Positions 3,281 through 63,143 of a stretch of 64,000 bases of DNA are shown here, in pieces. This DNA comes from a virus. Position 1 is the first letter of the stretch. Every line of letters starts with the position of its first letter. The notes under the pieces are model-generated. The model was not told where the DNA came from. It worked only from the letters and a program-made list of their open reading frames with translations, and did no database searches. The stretch lies in the IMG/VR virus record IMGVR_UViG_3300022602_000024, positions 62,797 to 126,796 of that record, one strand, 5' to 3'. Position numbers and translations under genes: made by a program.

Positions 3281-4160
3281 TGTAGCAGATTTAGATTGCA
3301 TTTATTTAACATATGATGAACCTCAAAAAGAAGAATTTTGGATCAAGATCCAAAACATGGTACCCTGGGCTAAACGAGTTGATGGAATCAAGGGCAGTGA
3401 TGCGGCTCACAAAGCAGCCGCGGATGCTAGCAATACTGATAGGTTTGTGCTTATCGACGGCGATAACTTGCCTGATGCTGATTTCTTTAACCTCCAGTTA
3501 CATTTGGATAGCACCAATGATGCTTGTGTTTTTCGTTGGCGGGCTCGTAACAGTATTAATGGCCTAATGTACGGCAATGGTGGTATGAGTTGTTGGACAA
3601 AAGAATTCGTCTACAATATGAAAACACACGAAGCGTCAGATGGATCAGATGACACCGCAGTGGAGTTCTGTTTTGATCCCAACTACTGGGCCATGCACGA
3701 CTGTTACAGCACAACCTATCCTGATGCAACACCTTATCAAGCCTGGCGTGCTGGCTATAGAGAAGGTGTTAAGATGTGTTTGGATCGTGGAGCAAAACCC
3801 ACGATAGAAGAATTTAGTCAACGTGTTCAAGGACGCAACTATGATAACCTATGCATCTGGCAAAGTGTCGGAGCAGATAACCCCAATGGCCTGTGGGCCA
3901 TTTACGGAGCACGGCTGGGTACATTCATGACCATGTGCGAAAAGTGGGAATATAGAGATGTACAAGATTTTGATAGACTCAAAAAGTTATGGGAAACTTT
4001 TGGTAAGTTAGATCCTGTAACAGAAATCAACAAGCTGACCAAACCTTTGCAAAACCGACTGGGATTACCTATTACATTATTAGATAGCAATGCTAGTCAG
4101 TTTTTTAAACATCATTATCGTGCGGTGTTTAAAAATAGAGGACCAATGATTCGTGAATAA
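3264..4160 (+). CDS. Glycosyltransferase-like protein related to the C-terminus of the 1071-aa repeat protein
   Basis: A 298-residue protein with an N-terminal strand, a DEP motif (18-20) and FVLIDGDNL (61-69), whose DGD is in the DxD position of GT-A enzymes. A WRARNSINGLMYG block (92-104) and an AWRAGYREGVK block (160-170) also occur, with matching order and spacing, in the last 225 residues of the protein at 18152-21367. The two are paralogous. The role is probably sugar transfer, with donor and acceptor unknown. It overlaps its upstream neighbour by 17 bp and the first radical SAM gene by 8 bp. Confidence 0.6.
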   Translation: MTQIVDVADLDCIYLTYDEPQKEEFWIKIQNMVPWAKRVDGIKGSDAAHKAAADASNTDRFVLIDGDNLPDADFFNLQLHLDSTNDACVFRWRARNSINGLMYGNGGMSCWTKEFVYNMKTHEASDGSDDTAVEFCFDPNYWAMHDCYSTTYPDATPYQAWRAGYREGVKMCLDRGAKPTIEEFSQRVQGRNYDNLCIWQSVGADNPNGLWAIYGARLGTFMTMCEKWEYRDVQDFDRLKKLWETFGKLDPVTEINKLTKPLQNRLGLPITLLDSNASQFFKHHYRAVFKNRGPMIRE

Positions 4161-10996: not shown

Positions 10997-12066
10997 ATAA
11001 AGTGACTGTAACCTTACGTAACCCATTGAACAAAACGGATACCATTGGCTATACTATTATAGTCAATGACACACCAATGGCTCAACGTTGGTATGCTGCA
11101 CTACAAGATAACTTGCGAGCTAATTTGTATTTAGAAAAGAACTTTTGCTTTTTAGGATTTCCTGATAGTGCAAGAGATTTAGAATTTATCTGTAAAGAAT
11201 TAGATTGGGCCAAACGTCAAATCAACCGGTTCTTTGACGCCGACGATTATTATATCCCAGAATTCTTTACTCCTAGTACTCTGCGTGACGGGCTAAATCC
11301 CAATCAAGAAATAATGAATAGACTACACAATCACTTTGAACATCTTCAAGGCACAGTTGGGGGATTAAGTGATTGGTATCGACGTGCTGACTACGAAACA
11401 AAGTTTGCTATTCGGCAACTAAATAACTTGTGCCACGAAGCAGAAAGTTTAATGCTAAGTCAGCGTAAAAAAGTAGAGTTGCCTGAGTGGGTACGTCCTA
11501 GTCAAATCACAACGTTTTTAAATTGCCCAAGACTAGAATTCCCTGCAGAATACAAAACAACATTTGACGAAACCCGTTATGATCGACGTTTTGGTGAGGT
11601 ATATTTACATTGGACACAGATTGGTAAAACCCTATATGAAGTATATCGTGATGAAAATGGTGTTGATATTGATCAGGCCACTTGCGATGCTATTACTCAT
11701 CTGCGTTTCTATAGTGGAGAGTTTGACGTTGAGTGGGCTCAAGATGTGGCGTTCCATGGGCCCCATCCGTGGCATACGAAAGAGATGATGGGCTTTAGGG
11801 CTTGGCTTACCCGTAACGGATTTGATGTTAATGACACACAATACAATTACGGGTATCACCCAGTTGGACAAGTGGATCTACAAGGTAGTTTTGGAACTAC
11901 AGATTTCCGTGAGGTGTGGCCCGTCCTTTCAAAATATCTAGACATATACAAGATCACTGCAGGTTCGGCATCAGCGACATTTGATTACACCTGGACTGAC
12001 GCAGATTATTATCAACAACAAATCAACAGAATGAAACCGGGATATGATTTTAGTAGCCGGGGGTGA
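10993..12066 (+). CDS. Conserved phage protein of unknown function (357 aa)
   Basis: Soluble 357-residue protein with an MNKVTVTLRNP opening and a beta-rich first 30 residues. A helical middle follows, and the second half holds repeated Trp/Tyr-rich strands such as YLHWTQIGKTLYE. I recall proteins of this shape beside radical SAM and SGNH genes in T4-like phages of aquatic bacteria, without known function. No catalytic motif could be assigned. Overlaps its neighbours by 4 and 23 bp. Confidence 0.75.
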   Translation: MNKVTVTLRNPLNKTDTIGYTIIVNDTPMAQRWYAALQDNLRANLYLEKNFCFLGFPDSARDLEFICKELDWAKRQINRFFDADDYYIPEFFTPSTLRDGLNPNQEIMNRLHNHFEHLQGTVGGLSDWYRRADYETKFAIRQLNNLCHEAESLMLSQRKKVELPEWVRPSQITTFLNCPRLEFPAEYKTTFDETRYDRRFGEVYLHWTQIGKTLYEVYRDENGVDIDQATCDAITHLRFYSGEFDVEWAQDVAFHGPHPWHTKEMMGFRAWLTRNGFDVNDTQYNYGYHPVGQVDLQGSFGTTDFREVWPVLSKYLDIYKITAGSASATFDYTWTDADYYQQQINRMKPGYDFSSRG

Positions 12067-30964: not shown

Positions 30965-31291
30965 TCAATGAGTATTAAGTGCGGGCTTGCACTCATTGAT
31001 TAATTCACGTTCGATAGCATGAGCGGGCTTACGTCCACGCACAATATCTACCAATAACACGGAAAATGCTTCTGCACCGTGTTCACGAATGCTGTTGCAC
31101 AAAGCCCACGATTTGTTTTCAGTTACAGCACGACGAACGTGCTTCTGAAAACGAACTTTTAGTGCTTTGGTTACTTGTGAGCCGCATACAGTAATACCAA
31201 TATAACTCTCGTTTGTGTTAGTGTTTACTAACATATAAACGGCGTGTTTGGTATCTTGTCTGCGTTTACGGGTTTGTTTTTTGCTGTCCAT
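30965..31291 (-). CDS. GIY-YIG family endonuclease
   Basis: A 108-residue protein starting MDSKKQTRKRRQ, with the GIY and YIG strands as VYML and YIGIT about ten residues apart, then a VRFQKH arginine helix and an ELINECKPALN end with the catalytic Glu position. Small GIY-YIG proteins in T4-like phages include Seg-type homing endonucleases. I chose 31291 rather than the upstream ATG (31330) because the -10 of a strong promoter ends 6 nt before this codon. Confidence 0.8.
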   Translation of the reverse strand: MDSKKQTRKRRQDTKHAVYMLVNTNTNESYIGITVCGSQVTKALKVRFQKHVRRAVTENKSWALCNSIREHGAEAFSVLLVDIVRGRKPAHAIERELINECKPALNTH

Positions 31292-31297
31292 GTAGTT

Positions 31298-31326
31298 ATT
31301 ATAGCAAAAGTGCCATTTATGGACAA
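31298..31326 (-). promoter_or_regulatory. Sigma70 promoter giving a probably leaderless GIY-YIG message
   Basis: TTGTCC (31321-31326), 17-bp spacer, TATAAT (31298-31303), then AACTAC and ATG. Transcription normally starts about 7 nt after the -10, which here is the A of the ATG. Confidence 0.7.
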
Positions 31327-31333
31327 CCAAACG

Positions 31334-31376
31334 GTGTTGTTTTTAGCACAAAAAAGTAGTACTAAAGTGTTACTTT
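31334..31376 (-). repeat. Direct repeat E: terminator-like unit ending the methyltransferase operon
   Basis: On the + strand it runs GTGTTGTTTTTA, a short A-rich spacer, then GTAGTACTAAAGTGTTACTTT. The same unit occurs at 34378-34417. On the - strand the second block can fold into a short imperfect hairpin followed by six T, so it may terminate the restriction-modification operon. The first block is junction element copy E. It overlaps the last codons of the methyltransferase gene. Confidence 0.7.
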
Positions 31377-32512
31377 TTGAACACAAAAATACCCTCAAAT
31401 TTTGTGCTATTTTCACTACGATTATTGCCTACTCCCGGGCGAGTTGTCAACAACATTTTAAGAGTTTCTGTGTGTTTAAAACCACACTTTTCGCTCAGCT
31501 CAATCCAGCGTTCTACTATTTTAAACTGCTCTTTGCCGTGTTTATAGTCGGCAATGTTGACTGCATATACCCCATCATCAGCAAGTGCACGATGAATCAT
31601 CTTTAACGTGGGTGCCACGTAACCTTCGAACCAACGATCAATGTCGCTATAACGATTCATACACTGGGTTGGTTCATCAGTGTAGGTTTCAAGATTAAAG
31701 TATGGGGGGCTAGAAAAGGCTGCATCGTAAGTGCCAGGTTCAGGCTCAAACTCCTCACTAGGCATACAATTCATACTAAATCCAGATCCTTGGCCTTCGT
31801 CTTGTAACAGTTCGCCTAGGGCCTGTAATCCTTCAAACGTTCGAGTGTTGGGATCAATACCGGTATAATGATAACGCATACGACTGGTCATTGAACCTAG
31901 CATACGTCCGCCATAGCCTGAACTAAAGTCCAATAGGTTGCCCATAAATGTGGGGCAAAGATATTCCCATACTGCACGAGCATTTAACGGTTTGAAGTTT
32001 TGTATAGTGCCACCATTGACCAATTCTATAGCAGTTCTGATCAAGTGCGGGAATACTGCTTCATCACCATTGTCTCGATGTTGATAGCACAATTTGATAG
32101 CACGTTTGAATTTGACATCATGATTAAATCTTGATCGTAAGCTCACAGTATCATTTGTATTCCATTTAGCATCTTGCATGTTAGGAAACCAAAAACGTGC
32201 AAACGCATTACCATCATTGCCACCAATGGCTAGAGTTTTCTTTGTGACAGATTTGTTCTTGTGTGCTAGATTACGAATCTGTGCTCTACATCCTTCTAAA
32301 CTGTAGTAGGTTAAAGGTAGCACATTTACTGCACGATAGATATCGAACACTTCTTGTTCAATGGCCAATCGACCTGCTTCATCTGCGGCTGCCCAACGTT
32401 CCTTATTCAATCGGCGTAGGTCCTTCTCTACACTTTCGTATCCGGTGTAGATGTCAGCAGTGGGAACAACTCCCCATTCTGCACAAACTTGATCGTAATA
32501 CGCTTGAATCAT
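31370..32512 (-). CDS. DNA methyltransferase with SPPY motif
   Basis: A 380-residue Rossmann methyltransferase. LLDFSSGYGGRMLG (193-206) is the SAM-binding motif I, and SSPPYF with SPPY at 268-271 is the catalytic motif IV of amino-methyltransferases acting on adenine N6 or cytosine N4. The first 180 residues are a helical region that may read the target. It lies in one operon with the Dam-type enzyme and the EcoRI-like nuclease (4-bp overlap with Dam), so it may protect phage DNA. Confidence 0.82.
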   Translation of the reverse strand: MIQAYYDQVCAEWGVVPTADIYTGYESVEKDLRRLNKERWAAADEAGRLAIEQEVFDIYRAVNVLPLTYYSLEGCRAQIRNLAHKNKSVTKKTLAIGGNDGNAFARFWFPNMQDAKWNTNDTVSLRSRFNHDVKFKRAIKLCYQHRDNGDEAVFPHLIRTAIELVNGGTIQNFKPLNARAVWEYLCPTFMGNLLDFSSGYGGRMLGSMTSRMRYHYTGIDPNTRTFEGLQALGELLQDEGQGSGFSMNCMPSEEFEPEPGTYDAAFSSPPYFNLETYTDEPTQCMNRYSDIDRWFEGYVAPTLKMIHRALADDGVYAVNIADYKHGKEQFKIVERWIELSEKCGFKHTETLKMLLTTRPGVGNNRSENSTKFEGIFVFKK

Positions 32513-33438
32513 TCTTCAGTGACAAATAACGATTCGTTTTTGATTGCTTTGCTATATAACAATACTTCTTTTGCAGCTTTGGCTTCTTTTATTGTGACAT
32601 TTGCTTTACCTTCTTCTTGTACTGTTTTTGTAGATCTACGCCCAGCAGTATAAGTGATATCATAATAACTGATATCTAAATTTCCTTGATTGTCTGTGTA
32701 AAATGTATCACCAGCATTGCGGTTGCAGTACATAACAATATGTCCTTCTTGATCTGCTTTTTTGCAAAAATCAATTAGTTCTAAATGTTTATTATCGTCA
32801 AAGTCTGTTCCGTATTGCGTAAAACTATCACGATAAGGAGGATCAAAAAAGAATAGTGCTCGACCTTCTATATTAGTACCGAGACAATGTTTCCATTCAC
32901 CACTGTGGATAGAAACTTTTTGTAAGAACTTGTGCCACTCTAACACATTTTCTTTGTCATATACGCTGTCTTTTTGATTAAGCAACCCAGATGGAGTACA
33001 AAATCTTCCTTTGGCTTCTTTGGTGCTTTGCCATATACCATTAAATGCGGTCTTCATTAAAAAGTACAATGTGGCACTTTCTTTAGCGGCTGACCAAGAT
33101 TGATATTCTGTGGTGTATTCTTTTCTTATTTTATAATAAAAAACTTTTCTTTCGGCCTTGGACATAGGCAAATACTGATTGCAAAGATGATCACATTCAG
33201 TAGTGAACTCTGTAATGTGATCTCGTATGGCAAGATATAACCCCACGATTTCCGGGTTTATATCATTGAGTATAAACTTAATGTTGGGATTATTTTTATA
33301 GATATGAATCATCATAGCACCACCTCCGAAGAATGGTTCTACATAAGTATCGTATCCATTTTTTGGTATGCCGGGATTAAGTTCGTACTTGGGTATCATT
33401 TTATTCTTACCACCGGCCCACATGTATAAAGGTTTCAT
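32509..33438 (-). CDS. dam: Dam-family (D12 class) adenine-N6 DNA methyltransferase
   Basis: A 309-residue enzyme. WAGGK (7-11) and VEPFFGGG (33-40) are the SAM-binding motifs, and DPPY (199-202) is the catalytic motif, in the order of the D12 class. It methylates adenine in a short target, classically GATC for Dam; the target here cannot be read from the sequence. It lies 11 bp after the EcoRI-like endonuclease gene and may be its cognate enzyme or an orphan. Confidence 0.9.
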   Translation of the reverse strand: MKPLYMWAGGKNKMIPKYELNPGIPKNGYDTYVEPFFGGGAMMIHIYKNNPNIKFILNDINPEIVGLYLAIRDHITEFTTECDHLCNQYLPMSKAERKVFYYKIRKEYTTEYQSWSAAKESATLYFLMKTAFNGIWQSTKEAKGRFCTPSGLLNQKDSVYDKENVLEWHKFLQKVSIHSGEWKHCLGTNIEGRALFFFDPPYRDSFTQYGTDFDDNKHLELIDFCKKADQEGHIVMYCNRNAGDTFYTDNQGNLDISYYDITYTAGRRSTKTVQEEGKANVTIKEAKAAKEVLLYSKAIKNESLFVTEE

Positions 33439-33449
33439 AGTATATTATA

Positions 33450-34277
33450 TTAGTTTAAAAAACATTCCACAAGTGTTGTGGCTATCTCTGAATTTGCTTT
33501 GCCTTCTTGCATCATGTCCAACACAATTTCATGTGCTTCTGTTAGATATGCACGGGGCAATCTGTGCCAAACTGGGAATAATGGATCACCGGGAGTCTGT
33601 GCAAAGGTACTAAAACGCATTTCTAATTCTCGACGTGCAAGTTCTTTAGCGATTCTTTCCGTGCGTTCTTCGTCAGTCTCAAAGTTTCTGATAAAGAAAT
33701 CTACACTACTTGATTTGCTTGCGTTTCCGTTGGTTATTGTCAAATATTGTTTGGCCTTTTCAAAAGGTATATCTAACCCTAATATACCAATCATTATGTT
33801 AAAGATTTCTTCTTCAGTGAATCCATTGGGTTGATAGTAAAAGATGCAGTTGTCGCCGTTGATGGCTCTCATCGTTTGTCCAAACTCATACAATACTCCG
33901 CCAGGATTTGCTCCTTCCCCAGTCATGAATGTGATGTATTTTACATCAGGATTCATTCGGTAACAAATCAAATAGTTTTTGGTCCATCGTTCAATAGCAT
34001 TACCGCCATCCTGTTGGTGCTTGGCTTCAAATACAAATTTAATAGATCTTGGTTGATTACGTGAACCATCAAACCACATGCCGCCATCGGGAACACATCC
34101 TAAGGTGACATTCATATTATGACATTCTGGGAGTATCTTATTCTTTTGGTGTCCGATTTCAAAACAATATTTTTCTTGACATATAGCAATAGCCATAGCG
34201 ATGTTCTTAACATCGCCGTCGAGCTGTTTAGACTCGGTACTGCCTGCTTCTGTACCTACTTGGATACCACCAGCCAT
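33450..34277 (-). CDS. EcoRI-family type II restriction endonuclease
   Basis: A 275-residue protein. PDGG (63-66) supplies the first catalytic Asp; EAKHQ (84-88) supplies the Glu and Lys of the PD-(D/E)xK site; and GNAIERWTKN (92-101) matches the EcoRI segment GNAIERSHKN, whose Asn, Glu and Arg contact the bases of GAATTC. EcoRI is of similar length (277 residues), although the spacing between EAKHQ and GNAIER is much shorter here. The enzyme would cut unmodified DNA of the host or a competing phage. It has its own promoter and is first in an operon with two methyltransferases. Confidence 0.88.
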   Translation of the reverse strand: MAGGIQVGTEAGSTESKQLDGDVKNIAMAIAICQEKYCFEIGHQKNKILPECHNMNVTLGCVPDGGMWFDGSRNQPRSIKFVFEAKHQQDGGNAIERWTKNYLICYRMNPDVKYITFMTGEGANPGGVLYEFGQTMRAINGDNCIFYYQPNGFTEEEIFNIMIGILGLDIPFEKAKQYLTITNGNASKSSSVDFFIRNFETDEERTERIAKELARRELEMRFSTFAQTPGDPLFPVWHRLPRAYLTEAHEIVLDMMQEGKANSEIATTLVECFLN

Positions 34278-38653: not shown

Positions 38654-38914
38654 TTATCGTTTTAGTAACCACATCATGTGCTCTTGAGCATTGTGCCATC
38701 TATATTCCCATACAGGCGATCCAGGTCCGGTCCATACGGCAGCACCAACAAATCCTTTTTTGAGCCAAATACGTTTTTGGCTTAAATCGCATCGTTGTGG
38801 TGTTAATGCAAAACGTTCTTCCCACTCGGCTCTACGATAAAATGCACCATCTGCATCATCTATCCATCGGTTGTTTGACATGGCCCGCTTTCCTAGATAT
38901 CCTGTGCCCATCAT
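38654..38914 (-). CDS. Small phage protein of unknown function (86 aa)
   Basis: The start at 38914 forms TGATG with the queE stop; ATGs at 38926 and 38881 are alternatives. The protein has RWIDDADGAFYRRAEWEERF and many Trp residues (WLKKG, VWTGPGSPVWEYRW). No domain recognised. The coupling to queE may be only positional. Confidence 0.6.
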   Translation of the reverse strand: MMGTGYLGKRAMSNNRWIDDADGAFYRRAEWEERFALTPQRCDLSQKRIWLKKGFVGAAVWTGPGSPVWEYRWHNAQEHMMWLLKR

Positions 38915-39759
38915 CAGGTGCCCCACTCGTTCTTGAACAATGGCACTTGTAGTCGATCACTGTAACGCCAGCCACGTTTCATTGCGGCTAGTGCTACATT
39001 CCTTGCATTTAACGTGTAAACATTCTCTACACCGCCCACAGGCATGATATAAACATGCCCTTTAAACCCTGCTGATCTAAATTCTCTTACTGCACGTTCT
39101 GCATCTAACAAATCTTCTTCAGTGGCTACAACAAGTTTAAGATATACTGTACCAACTTGTTCATATTCGCATACAATCTCGGGTCGGATAGCATCCGCCC
39201 ACTTCTCGCCACTAGCAGGAAGTTTAGCACTTACGCTGAATGTGATTTCTCCATTTTTCCATCTAGCCCATTCTTGCAAATATCGTTTAAATTCTAGAGT
39301 TAACTTTTGCGTGCCATTTGTTTCAAATGTGATTTCTTTCAAGTCTGACATTTTAGGATGATCCAGCAAGTCTGGATAAGCACGTTGCCATCCTAGCAAT
39401 GGCTCGCCTCCTGTGATGACAAGGTGCTCATCGATCCAGGTCTTGTATGGGAGAATGTGCATGATTCTATCTGCAATGGCGTCTGTTGTGAGCATTGGAC
39501 TAAGTTCTTTAAAATCAGGATGCCAACTAGCATAGCTGTCACAACCCGTAGATACAAGAGGAAGTTCTTCATATTTGTTAAAGTGGTAAACGACTTGTGC
39601 AATATCATCAGCTTCGGTACTGAGTTCACCACGTGGCATACCAAAGCCGGCACATTTAAAGTTACAACCAAATGTGCGTAAGAATACCGACGGCACACCC
39701 ATATAGCGACCTTCTCCTTGTACGCTATAAAACAATTCTGCGATTTTGAGTTTACTCAT
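38914..39759 (-). CDS. queE: 7-carboxy-7-deazaguanine synthase
   Basis: Radical SAM enzyme that converts carboxytetrahydropterin (from QueD) to CDG. YSVQGEGRYMGVPSVFLR at residues 11-28 is diagnostic for QueE, and GGEP is at 117-120. The cluster motif is unusual: C32 and C36 are present, but the third Cys position is Phe39, and the next Cys is C73 in STGCDSYASW. The start at MSKLKIAELF gives 281 residues, within an 8-bp overlap with the MazG-like gene. Part of the folE/queD/queE/DpdA set. Confidence 0.92.
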   Translation of the reverse strand: MSKLKIAELFYSVQGEGRYMGVPSVFLRTFGCNFKCAGFGMPRGELSTEADDIAQVVYHFNKYEELPLVSTGCDSYASWHPDFKELSPMLTTDAIADRIMHILPYKTWIDEHLVITGGEPLLGWQRAYPDLLDHPKMSDLKEITFETNGTQKLTLEFKRYLQEWARWKNGEITFSVSAKLPASGEKWADAIRPEIVCEYEQVGTVYLKLVVATEEDLLDAERAVREFRSAGFKGHVYIMPVGGVENVYTLNARNVALAAMKRGWRYSDRLQVPLFKNEWGT

Positions 39760-40024
39760 AGATTGATGACCATTTCTTAAGTTTTTCAATTTTGTGTTGC
39801 TTTGCAATGTCTAATTGTACAGTATCTAGTACACCTTGGTCAACTAAAATGTCGATTAATGCCAACATATCTCCAACTTCCATTACCAAAGTTTCTCTGT
39901 GCGGTAAATTAGTATGATGCGAAAGTTCATCTAATCCAAATCTTCTGATTTTACTAACTTCTACTATTACTTCTGCACATTCTTCTTGTAGTATACCCAA
40001 GGCTTCTTCTATTTTTGAATTCAT
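39752..40024 (-). CDS. MazG-like nucleotide pyrophosphohydrolase
   Basis: A 90-residue all-helical protein with EEALGILQEECAEVIVEVSK (the EExxE metal motif) and EVGDMLALIDIL (ExxD), the two metal-binding helices of the MazG/NTP-PPase superfamily. These hydrolyse nucleoside triphosphates to monophosphates, or lower ppGpp in phage-infected cells. It overlaps queE and the radical SAM gene. Confidence 0.78.
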   Translation of the reverse strand: MNSKIEEALGILQEECAEVIVEVSKIRRFGLDELSHHTNLPHRETLVMEVGDMLALIDILVDQGVLDTVQLDIAKQHKIEKLKKWSSIYE

Positions 40025-62502: not shown

Positions 62503-63143
62503 TTGGGTAAGTGGTAAAATTTTTGTTGGTATTGATCTATTACTTGTCTATACCGTACAATATCACGTTCTAAGAAATTCTTTTGTAGACTATGATAGTT
62601 GGTTTCGTATACTTTTTTGTAGTATTCGATCTGTTTTCTAAGTTCCAGCTCATCAGCAGTGGCAACATTCATACGCCGATCTCGTTCTATAACCAAGTCA
62701 AGCCCGTTCTCTTTGAAGAACATGTTGGTTAAATCGTTGCCCGAGTATAAATGACGGTCAGGATCAAACGGCTCATACGGCTGATGATCTTTGATTGTTG
62801 CATCCAGTGGAATCCAATGTATAGGCAAATCCCAGATGGGACCCAACATCATGGATACACTATAGGTATGCTCGTCAAATACTCCGCTGACCAACAACTT
62901 GGCCACTTGTGGATCATCTAAACTAATGTCTGGATTGAGCCTCAGGTACTGTGTGATACCTTTGGTATGCCTGACTTCAGGATCTGTTATATGTGCAAAG
63001 ATCTTGTACTGTGATAAATCTAATAGTGGATCAAATAAGTTAACATAATCCCACCCATGTGCAGCCAAGAATGTGTTATGTGTTATATAACCATTCTTAG
63101 GGCACAGTATGTATAGGAAGCGATCTTTGATCCTGCAGAACAT
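62499..63143 (-). CDS. Sulfotransferase-like protein 2
   Basis: A 214-residue protein. YILCPKNGYITHNTF near residue 11 sits where the PAPS 5' loop is, and AHITDPEVRHTKGITQYL where the 3'-phosphate Arg-Asp-Pro motif is (a D-P-E-V-R variant). A C-terminal coiled coil follows. I recall similar phage sulfotransferases, but both motifs are weaker than in the first copy, so a different substrate or loss of activity is possible. Confidence 0.6.
   Translation of the reverse strand: MFCRIKDRFLYILCPKNGYITHNTFLAAHGWDYVNLFDPLLDLSQYKIFAHITDPEVRHTKGITQYLRLNPDISLDDPQVAKLLVSGVFDEHTYSVSMMLGPIWDLPIHWIPLDATIKDHQPYEPFDPDRHLYSGNDLTNMFFKENGLDLVIERDRRMNVATADELELRKQIEYYKKVYETNYHSLQKNFLERDIVRYRQVIDQYQQKFYHLPK

Follow-up and report, generated by a model that had tools for sequence, protein, structure and literature searches.

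The window analysed here is a 64,000-nucleotide stretch (positions 62,797–126,796) of the 354,429-base virus record IMGVR_UViG_3300022602_000024. On its minus strand, at positions 33450–34277, lies an open reading frame of 275 amino acids which a preliminary description took to be an EcoRI-family restriction endonuclease. Textbooks present Type II restriction enzymes as weapons against phages; the locus raises the question of which sequence such an enzyme would read, and which DNA it would attack, when it is the phage that carries it. The nearest matches to the 5'–3' exonuclease of this phage are those of PA5oct-type jumbo phages.

An EcoRI-like system in a phage had been called unusual. This agrees with the literature, in which Type II restriction enzymes `rarely occur on bacteriophages' (PMC4081073). 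The family nevertheless proves to be widespread in aquatic phages. Relatives were found in approximately 85 phage contigs (IMG/VR loci) and in 65 Synechococcus phage records, and 69 distinct proteins were collected. Pattern-based scans of 84,980 prokaryote species genomes returned none. Cultured carriers include S-RIM2, S-BM1 and S-CREM2. The S-CREM2 protein gp11 and phrog_2400 belong to the same family as the window nuclease; the name `restriction endonuclease EcoRI' given to gp11 is a record annotation only, and the S-CREM2 paper makes no mention of EcoRI. We found no description of this phage nuclease family in the open-access literature.

Relationship of the nuclease to EcoRI

As a single sequence, the window protein has no Pfam match at E ≤ 1 (neither PF02963 nor PF11407), nothing credible in the PDB by phmmer and no match among the NCBIfam and PADLOC models. 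It was assigned to phrog_2400, which is annotated as of unknown function. A profile built from 33 relatives gave EcoRI chains as its sole significant match in the PDB (E = 4.4e-6), and hhalign aligned the family with EcoRI at 96% probability over 105 columns comprising the N-terminal helix, the PD, ExK and GNAIER elements and the next strand. The EcoRI model PF02963 was matched weakly by four of the 33 relatives (best E 0.0013). Structure prediction and comparison with EcoRI, which the preliminary description had proposed as a check, gave the same answer: the AlphaFold2 model (pLDDT 89) has EcoRI structures as all five of its best Foldseek matches in the PDB (probability 1.00, best E 4.5e-4). 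The TM-score to EcoRI is merely 0.38, which indicates that the part common to the two proteins is the core only.

The motif blocks PDGG (residues 63–66), EAKHQ (84–88) and GNAIERWTKN (92–101) are present in the order originally described. The predicted catalytic residues Asp64, in the PD element (Pro63-Asp64; 34086–34091, minus strand), and Glu84 and Lys86, in the ExK element (Glu84-Ala85-Lys86; 34020–34028, minus strand), align with Asp91, Glu111 and Lys113 of EcoRI; they are invariant in the 33 aligned relatives, as is Pro63. The putative recognition motif GNAIER (Gly92–Arg97; 33987–34004, minus strand) has invariant GNA and ER residues across the aligned family, with Asn93, Ala94, Glu96 and Arg97 equivalent to EcoRI Asn141, Ala142, Glu144 and Arg145. 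Asn141, Ala142 and Arg145 of EcoRI are described as contacting the AATT bases (PMC4081073). Ile95 is a valine in one of the 69 distinct relatives. The invariance of GNAIERW is partly a matter of ascertainment, as relatives were collected with two search patterns and this string served as one of them; the other pattern, CxPDGG, is independent of it and recovered one GNAVER member.

EcoRI itself (PF02963; PDB entries 1ERI and 2OXV), which recognizes GAATTC, shares with the phage family the PD...ExK site, the GNAIER segment and the order of these elements. It differs in size, having 277 residues compared with approximately 180 in a typical family member, and the phage proteins lack both the outer arm, located between ExK and GNAIER in EcoRI, and the C-terminal third. 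They differ further in having a Dam-like D12 methyltransferase as partner and in the inferred AATT core of their target. The window protein carries a C-terminal extension of about 110 residues (residues ~168–275; 33450–33776, minus strand) which is helical in the AlphaFold2 prediction and is common only to this protein and those of loci L004 and L011. At the level of sequence and modelled structure, the active site, the GNAxER segment, the profile homology and the core fold confirm the assignment of this reading frame to the EcoRI superfamily as a predicted nuclease. The original proposal of an EcoRI-family nuclease with a linked methyltransferase is thus borne out by the profile, hhalign and Foldseek results and by the adjoining D12 gene.

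The methyltransferase partner and neighbouring genes

A D12-class DNA adenine methyltransferase gene (309 amino acids; 32509–33438, minus strand) starts 11 nt downstream of the nuclease reading frame. Its product scores 149 bits against TIGR00571 (cut-off 115) and 103 bits against PF02086, contains the D12 domain and the DPPY motif, and has DpnM and EcoDam as its best PDB matches. This partnership is conserved: a D12 gene adjoins the nuclease or lies one gene from it in 65 of 77 informative loci (84%), fusion included. It adjoins the nuclease on the same strand in 47 of the 77, often with an ATGA overlap, and lies one gene further away in 17; the remaining 12 have room for a D12 gene and lack one. 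In the fused case (L065:1881-3299) nuclease and methyltransferase form a single 472-residue reading frame, which may be natural or may stem from a single-base assembly error where the two genes overlap. Several cyanophages have a ParB-like (DGQHT) gene of about 340 codons between nuclease and methyltransferase (L006:4582-5670, L018:6791-7810 and L031:1472-2503). At a locus with a divergent nuclease family member, the D12 partner is replaced by an adjacent MT-A70 methyltransferase (L084:4661-5703).

The phage D12 enzymes resemble the GATC-specific adenine methyltransferases Dam and DpnM in their D12 fold, DPPY motif and F/YNG loop, but differ at the positions that read G. In the EcoDam–DNA structure Lys9 reads the first G and Arg124 the fourth base pair of GATC. 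When two distant paralogues are excluded, the residue aligned with Arg124 is a glutamine in 55 of 55 cognate D12 proteins and Lys9 is lost in 53 of the 55. The replacements are methionine or isoleucine for Lys9 and glutamine for Arg124; the window protein has methionine and glutamine. With both residues replaced, the cognate enzymes should not be GATC-specific, and the glutamine at the Arg124 position points to a preference for A, which would be compatible with an AATT target. Together the replacements suggest that an A·T pair stands in the place of the G·C pair read by Dam.

The preliminary description had two methyltransferase genes following the nuclease. Two methyltransferase-like genes are indeed present, but of these the D12 gene alone is conserved as a partner of the nuclease. 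The other (380 amino acids; 31370–32512, minus strand; phrog_12517) has an SPPY motif and a weak N6_N4_Mtase match and overlaps the D12 gene by 4 nt; we rejected it as part of the unit since it occurs only in identical contigs of the window's phage. Just 3' of it is a GIY-YIG reading frame resembling homing endonucleases (30965–31330, minus strand). A radical SAM reading frame resembling QueE (38914–39807, minus strand) led us to look for the QueC and TGT families, neither of which has a match anywhere in the record, and a 7-deazaguanine pathway as self-protection of the phage was dropped on this ground.

AATT and GAATTC in carriers and controls

Observed counts of AATT were compared with those expected from a maximal-order Markov model, on which the ratios given here depend. 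Two control sets were used: 77 cyanophage loci, retrieved with an unrelated baseplate gene, and 78 loci from the kin of the window's phage, retrieved with the exonuclease gene. Neither set contains a locus with the nuclease. The median observed/expected ratio is 0.39 in the carriers (80 loci) compared with 0.97 in the cyanophage controls and 0.95 in the kin (Mann–Whitney p = 2e-21 and 7e-8, respectively, with contigs within a cluster not being independent). When the carriers are collapsed to 19 nuclease clusters at 65% identity the median is 0.44 (p = 3e-11). Among the 136 tetramers AATT shows the largest shift between carriers and controls, while AATC, AATG and AATA, each a one-step product of AATT, are enriched in carriers. 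A general depletion of AATT in cyanophages is rejected by both control sets.

The named phages show the same division. AATT is the most depleted palindrome in both S-RIM2 (0.38) and S-BM1 (0.26), while six phages without the nuclease (S-RIM12, S-CAM8, S-RIM8, Syn30, S-RIM50 and syn9) have ratios of 0.83–1.06. Some carriers, such as G012 and L075, show no depletion. Three control loci are strongly AATT-depleted, and two of these are 98% identical to the carrier S-RIM2; the third, the cyanophage locus L130, has two AATT sites where 31 are expected, and its 31 kb record contains no nuclease. We also note that CCGG is nearly absent from cyanophages generally (median ratio 0.00 in control loci L114–L193), and that S-RIM8 (L110) and S-RIM50 (L112), which have no AATT nuclease, are strongly depleted in GATC (7/67 and 9/64 observed/expected, respectively), a separate avoidance that would be driven by the phage itself or by its host.

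The most extreme carriers are the contigs G001 (74 kb) and G002 (112 kb), both of which are fragments. AATT is wholly absent from 60 kb of each (195 and 164 expected), a condition found in none of the control loci, which average 8.2 AATT per kb. No match to the D12, N6_N4 or MT-A70 families was found in either record, and a methyltransferase may sit on the missing part. AGCT and CCGG are likewise rare in G001 and G002.

In the window's own phage the depletion is weaker than in most carriers, with 1649 AATT in 244 kb compared with 2110 expected (0.78), although AATT is still below that of its kin (8 kb blocks of 104 kb, p = 3e-5). Such weak depletion would fit recent acquisition of the system or good methylation. 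The window contains 13 GAATTC sites (17.7 ± 4.3 expected), in keeping with the earlier count of at least twelve by eye; the sites at 11260, 27027 and 57026 are exact and that given as 3604 begins at 3603. The accompanying statement that the sites are not clearly avoided holds for GAATTC, with 43 observed and 39 expected in the window's phage, but not for AATT. By flank, the ratios are 0.60 for YAATTR, 0.87 for mixed flanks and 0.96 for RAATTY. The related carrier G011 has the same pattern in stronger form, with three YAATTR compared with 64 expected and 18 GAATTC compared with 10 expected. This avoidance of YAATTR with GAATTC unavoided counts against a GAATTC target, although codon constraints may contribute to the flank pattern, and GAATTC as the avoided site is rejected by the flank analysis. 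The genome signatures suggest that the target of the phage nuclease is AATT and not, as was originally supposed, GAATTC.

Function, rival readings and related modules

In our view, the window system is quite probably a phage-borne Type II restriction–modification unit with an AATT core. We read it in this way because of the homology to EcoRI, the invariant catalytic and recognition residues, the linkage to the D12 gene, the loss of the G contacts of Dam and the carrier-specific depletion of AATT. Related methyltransferases beside MunI-like nucleases and beside a third nuclease family with AATT-depleted surroundings, described below, also speak for it; the low TM-score, the weak depletion in the window's phage, the lack of depletion in some carriers and the lack of clear depletion in the MunI-like carriers speak against it. 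Cleavage, methylation, the exact flanks and the biological target are what we infer in the following scheme. The nuclease would be a minimal EcoRI-superfamily enzyme without the outer arm and, by analogy with EcoRI, probably a homodimer. The GNAIER segment would read the AATT core and the Asp64/Glu84/Lys86 site would cut both DNA strands. The adjacent D12 enzyme would methylate adenine N6 in the AATT core, most likely at the second A, and so shield the phage's own DNA. In the infected cell the nuclease would then cut unmarked DNA, which may be that of rival phages in the same cell, that of the host or both.

The preliminary description favoured a true EcoRI isoschizomer, with nuclease and methylase both specific for GAATTC. 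The GNAIER motif of the window protein is identical to that of EcoRI, and S-RIM2 and the cyanophage carriers deplete GAATTC too. However, all ten xAATTx flank classes are gone from G001 and G002 (0 observed compared with ~338 expected), and GAATTC is the least avoided class in the lineage of the window's phage, where YAATTR is the one strongly avoided. The missing outer arm and C-terminal third also speak against this reading, as does the Dam-like D12 partner, M.EcoRI being a methyltransferase of another kind, and we consider it very unlikely. Only slightly less unlikely is that the depletion of AATT stems from host restriction and that the nuclease has another function or none. Cyanophages do generally avoid the palindromes AGCT, CCGG and GGCC, presumably owing to their hosts, but controls from the same phage groups, both the control loci and the six non-carriers named above, avoid AGCT and CCGG to the same degree as carriers and do not avoid AATT; furthermore, the AATT depletion recurs over the 19 divergent nuclease clusters in both marine and freshwater-type phages. 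That the D12 enzyme is an ordinary GATC Dam, lying near the nuclease by coincidence, would accord with its best PDB matches, but is highly improbable given the frequency of the linkage and the replacement of both G-contact residues. In addition, several records (G004, G014 and G015) also encode a distant Dam paralogue that is separate from the partner gene.

A further reading has the nuclease mainly degrading host DNA, for nucleotide salvage or host shut-off, with methylation or site erasure merely sparing the phage DNA and rival exclusion not being its role. It is a sub-reading of the restriction–modification unit proposed above and differs from it in the prey alone; the two roles are compatible. 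Attack on host DNA has been proposed for the chlorovirus restriction endonucleases (cited in PMC7253447), and the erasure of every AATT from carriers without a detectable methyltransferase is what one would expect of a nuclease active in each infection. On the other hand, the marseillevirus restriction–modification system attacks rival viruses and does not degrade host DNA (PMC7253447), and related non-carrier cyanophages that infect the same host genus retain approximately 8 unprotected AATT per kb, which would make them good targets. We hold host degradation as the main role to be a real possibility, if somewhat on the doubtful side, and favour rival exclusion, or rivals and host together, as the prey. 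The chlorovirus and marseillevirus systems resemble the present one as complete virus-encoded units for which host attack or rival exclusion has been proposed, but they belong to eukaryotic viruses, with GATC as the marseillevirus target, whereas the unit described here belongs to tailed phages and combines an EcoRI-superfamily nuclease with a predicted AATT core.

A restriction–modification unit of this kind would mean that phages themselves use restriction–modification, probably as a weapon, and a whole lineage of Type II enzymes looks phage-borne with its own methylase. The predicted AATT target and the cultured carriers make both rival exclusion and host attack directly testable. The nuclease family may also supply small four-base cutters, and in the AATT-free carriers site deletion may be a third way of living with one's own restriction enzyme. 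A broader synthesis, which we offer tentatively and at just under an even chance, is that of a phage-restricted EcoRI-superfamily lineage with a four-base AATT target, widespread among aquatic phages of the T4-like and jumbo types, in which a re-specified Dam-like methyltransferase swaps between EcoRI-like, MunI-like and third-family nucleases and some methylase-free carriers, having erased all AATT, practise offensive restriction without modification.

The MunI-like and third-family modules were found by a scan with the D12 methyltransferase alignment, in which related D12 enzymes with the same FNGxxQ loop also adjoin these two other kinds of nuclease. MunI (PF11407) reads CAATTG, which again contains an AATT core; like the phage family it is a short PD-(D/E)XK enzyme, and in both a GNAxER segment goes with that core, which in the phage family is predicted, but the window protein has no PF11407 match. 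MunI-like phage nucleases (GGNAHER) lie beside related D12 genes at L337:2471-2992, L340:2723-3202, L346:4226-4777 and others (alignment A6), and two of the three tested score above the PF11407 cut-off. Their hhalign alignment with the phage nuclease family of the window is weak (27%). The MunI-like carriers show no clear AATT depletion, and CAATTG, which was expected to be depleted, stands at 36 observed and 36 expected.

The third family consists of ExK-like proteins of about 290 amino acids with an E(I/L)K(K/N)NGASLKP motif, encoded directly upstream of a Q-type D12 methyltransferase (L319:5124-5996, L306:5089-5994, L298:278-1153 and L327:5120-6001; alignment A5). It has no match in Pfam, PHROGs or the PDB, and a fold search gave no assignment. 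AATT is depleted around these loci (0.12–0.47), and we regard the family as a candidate new family of AATT restriction enzymes.
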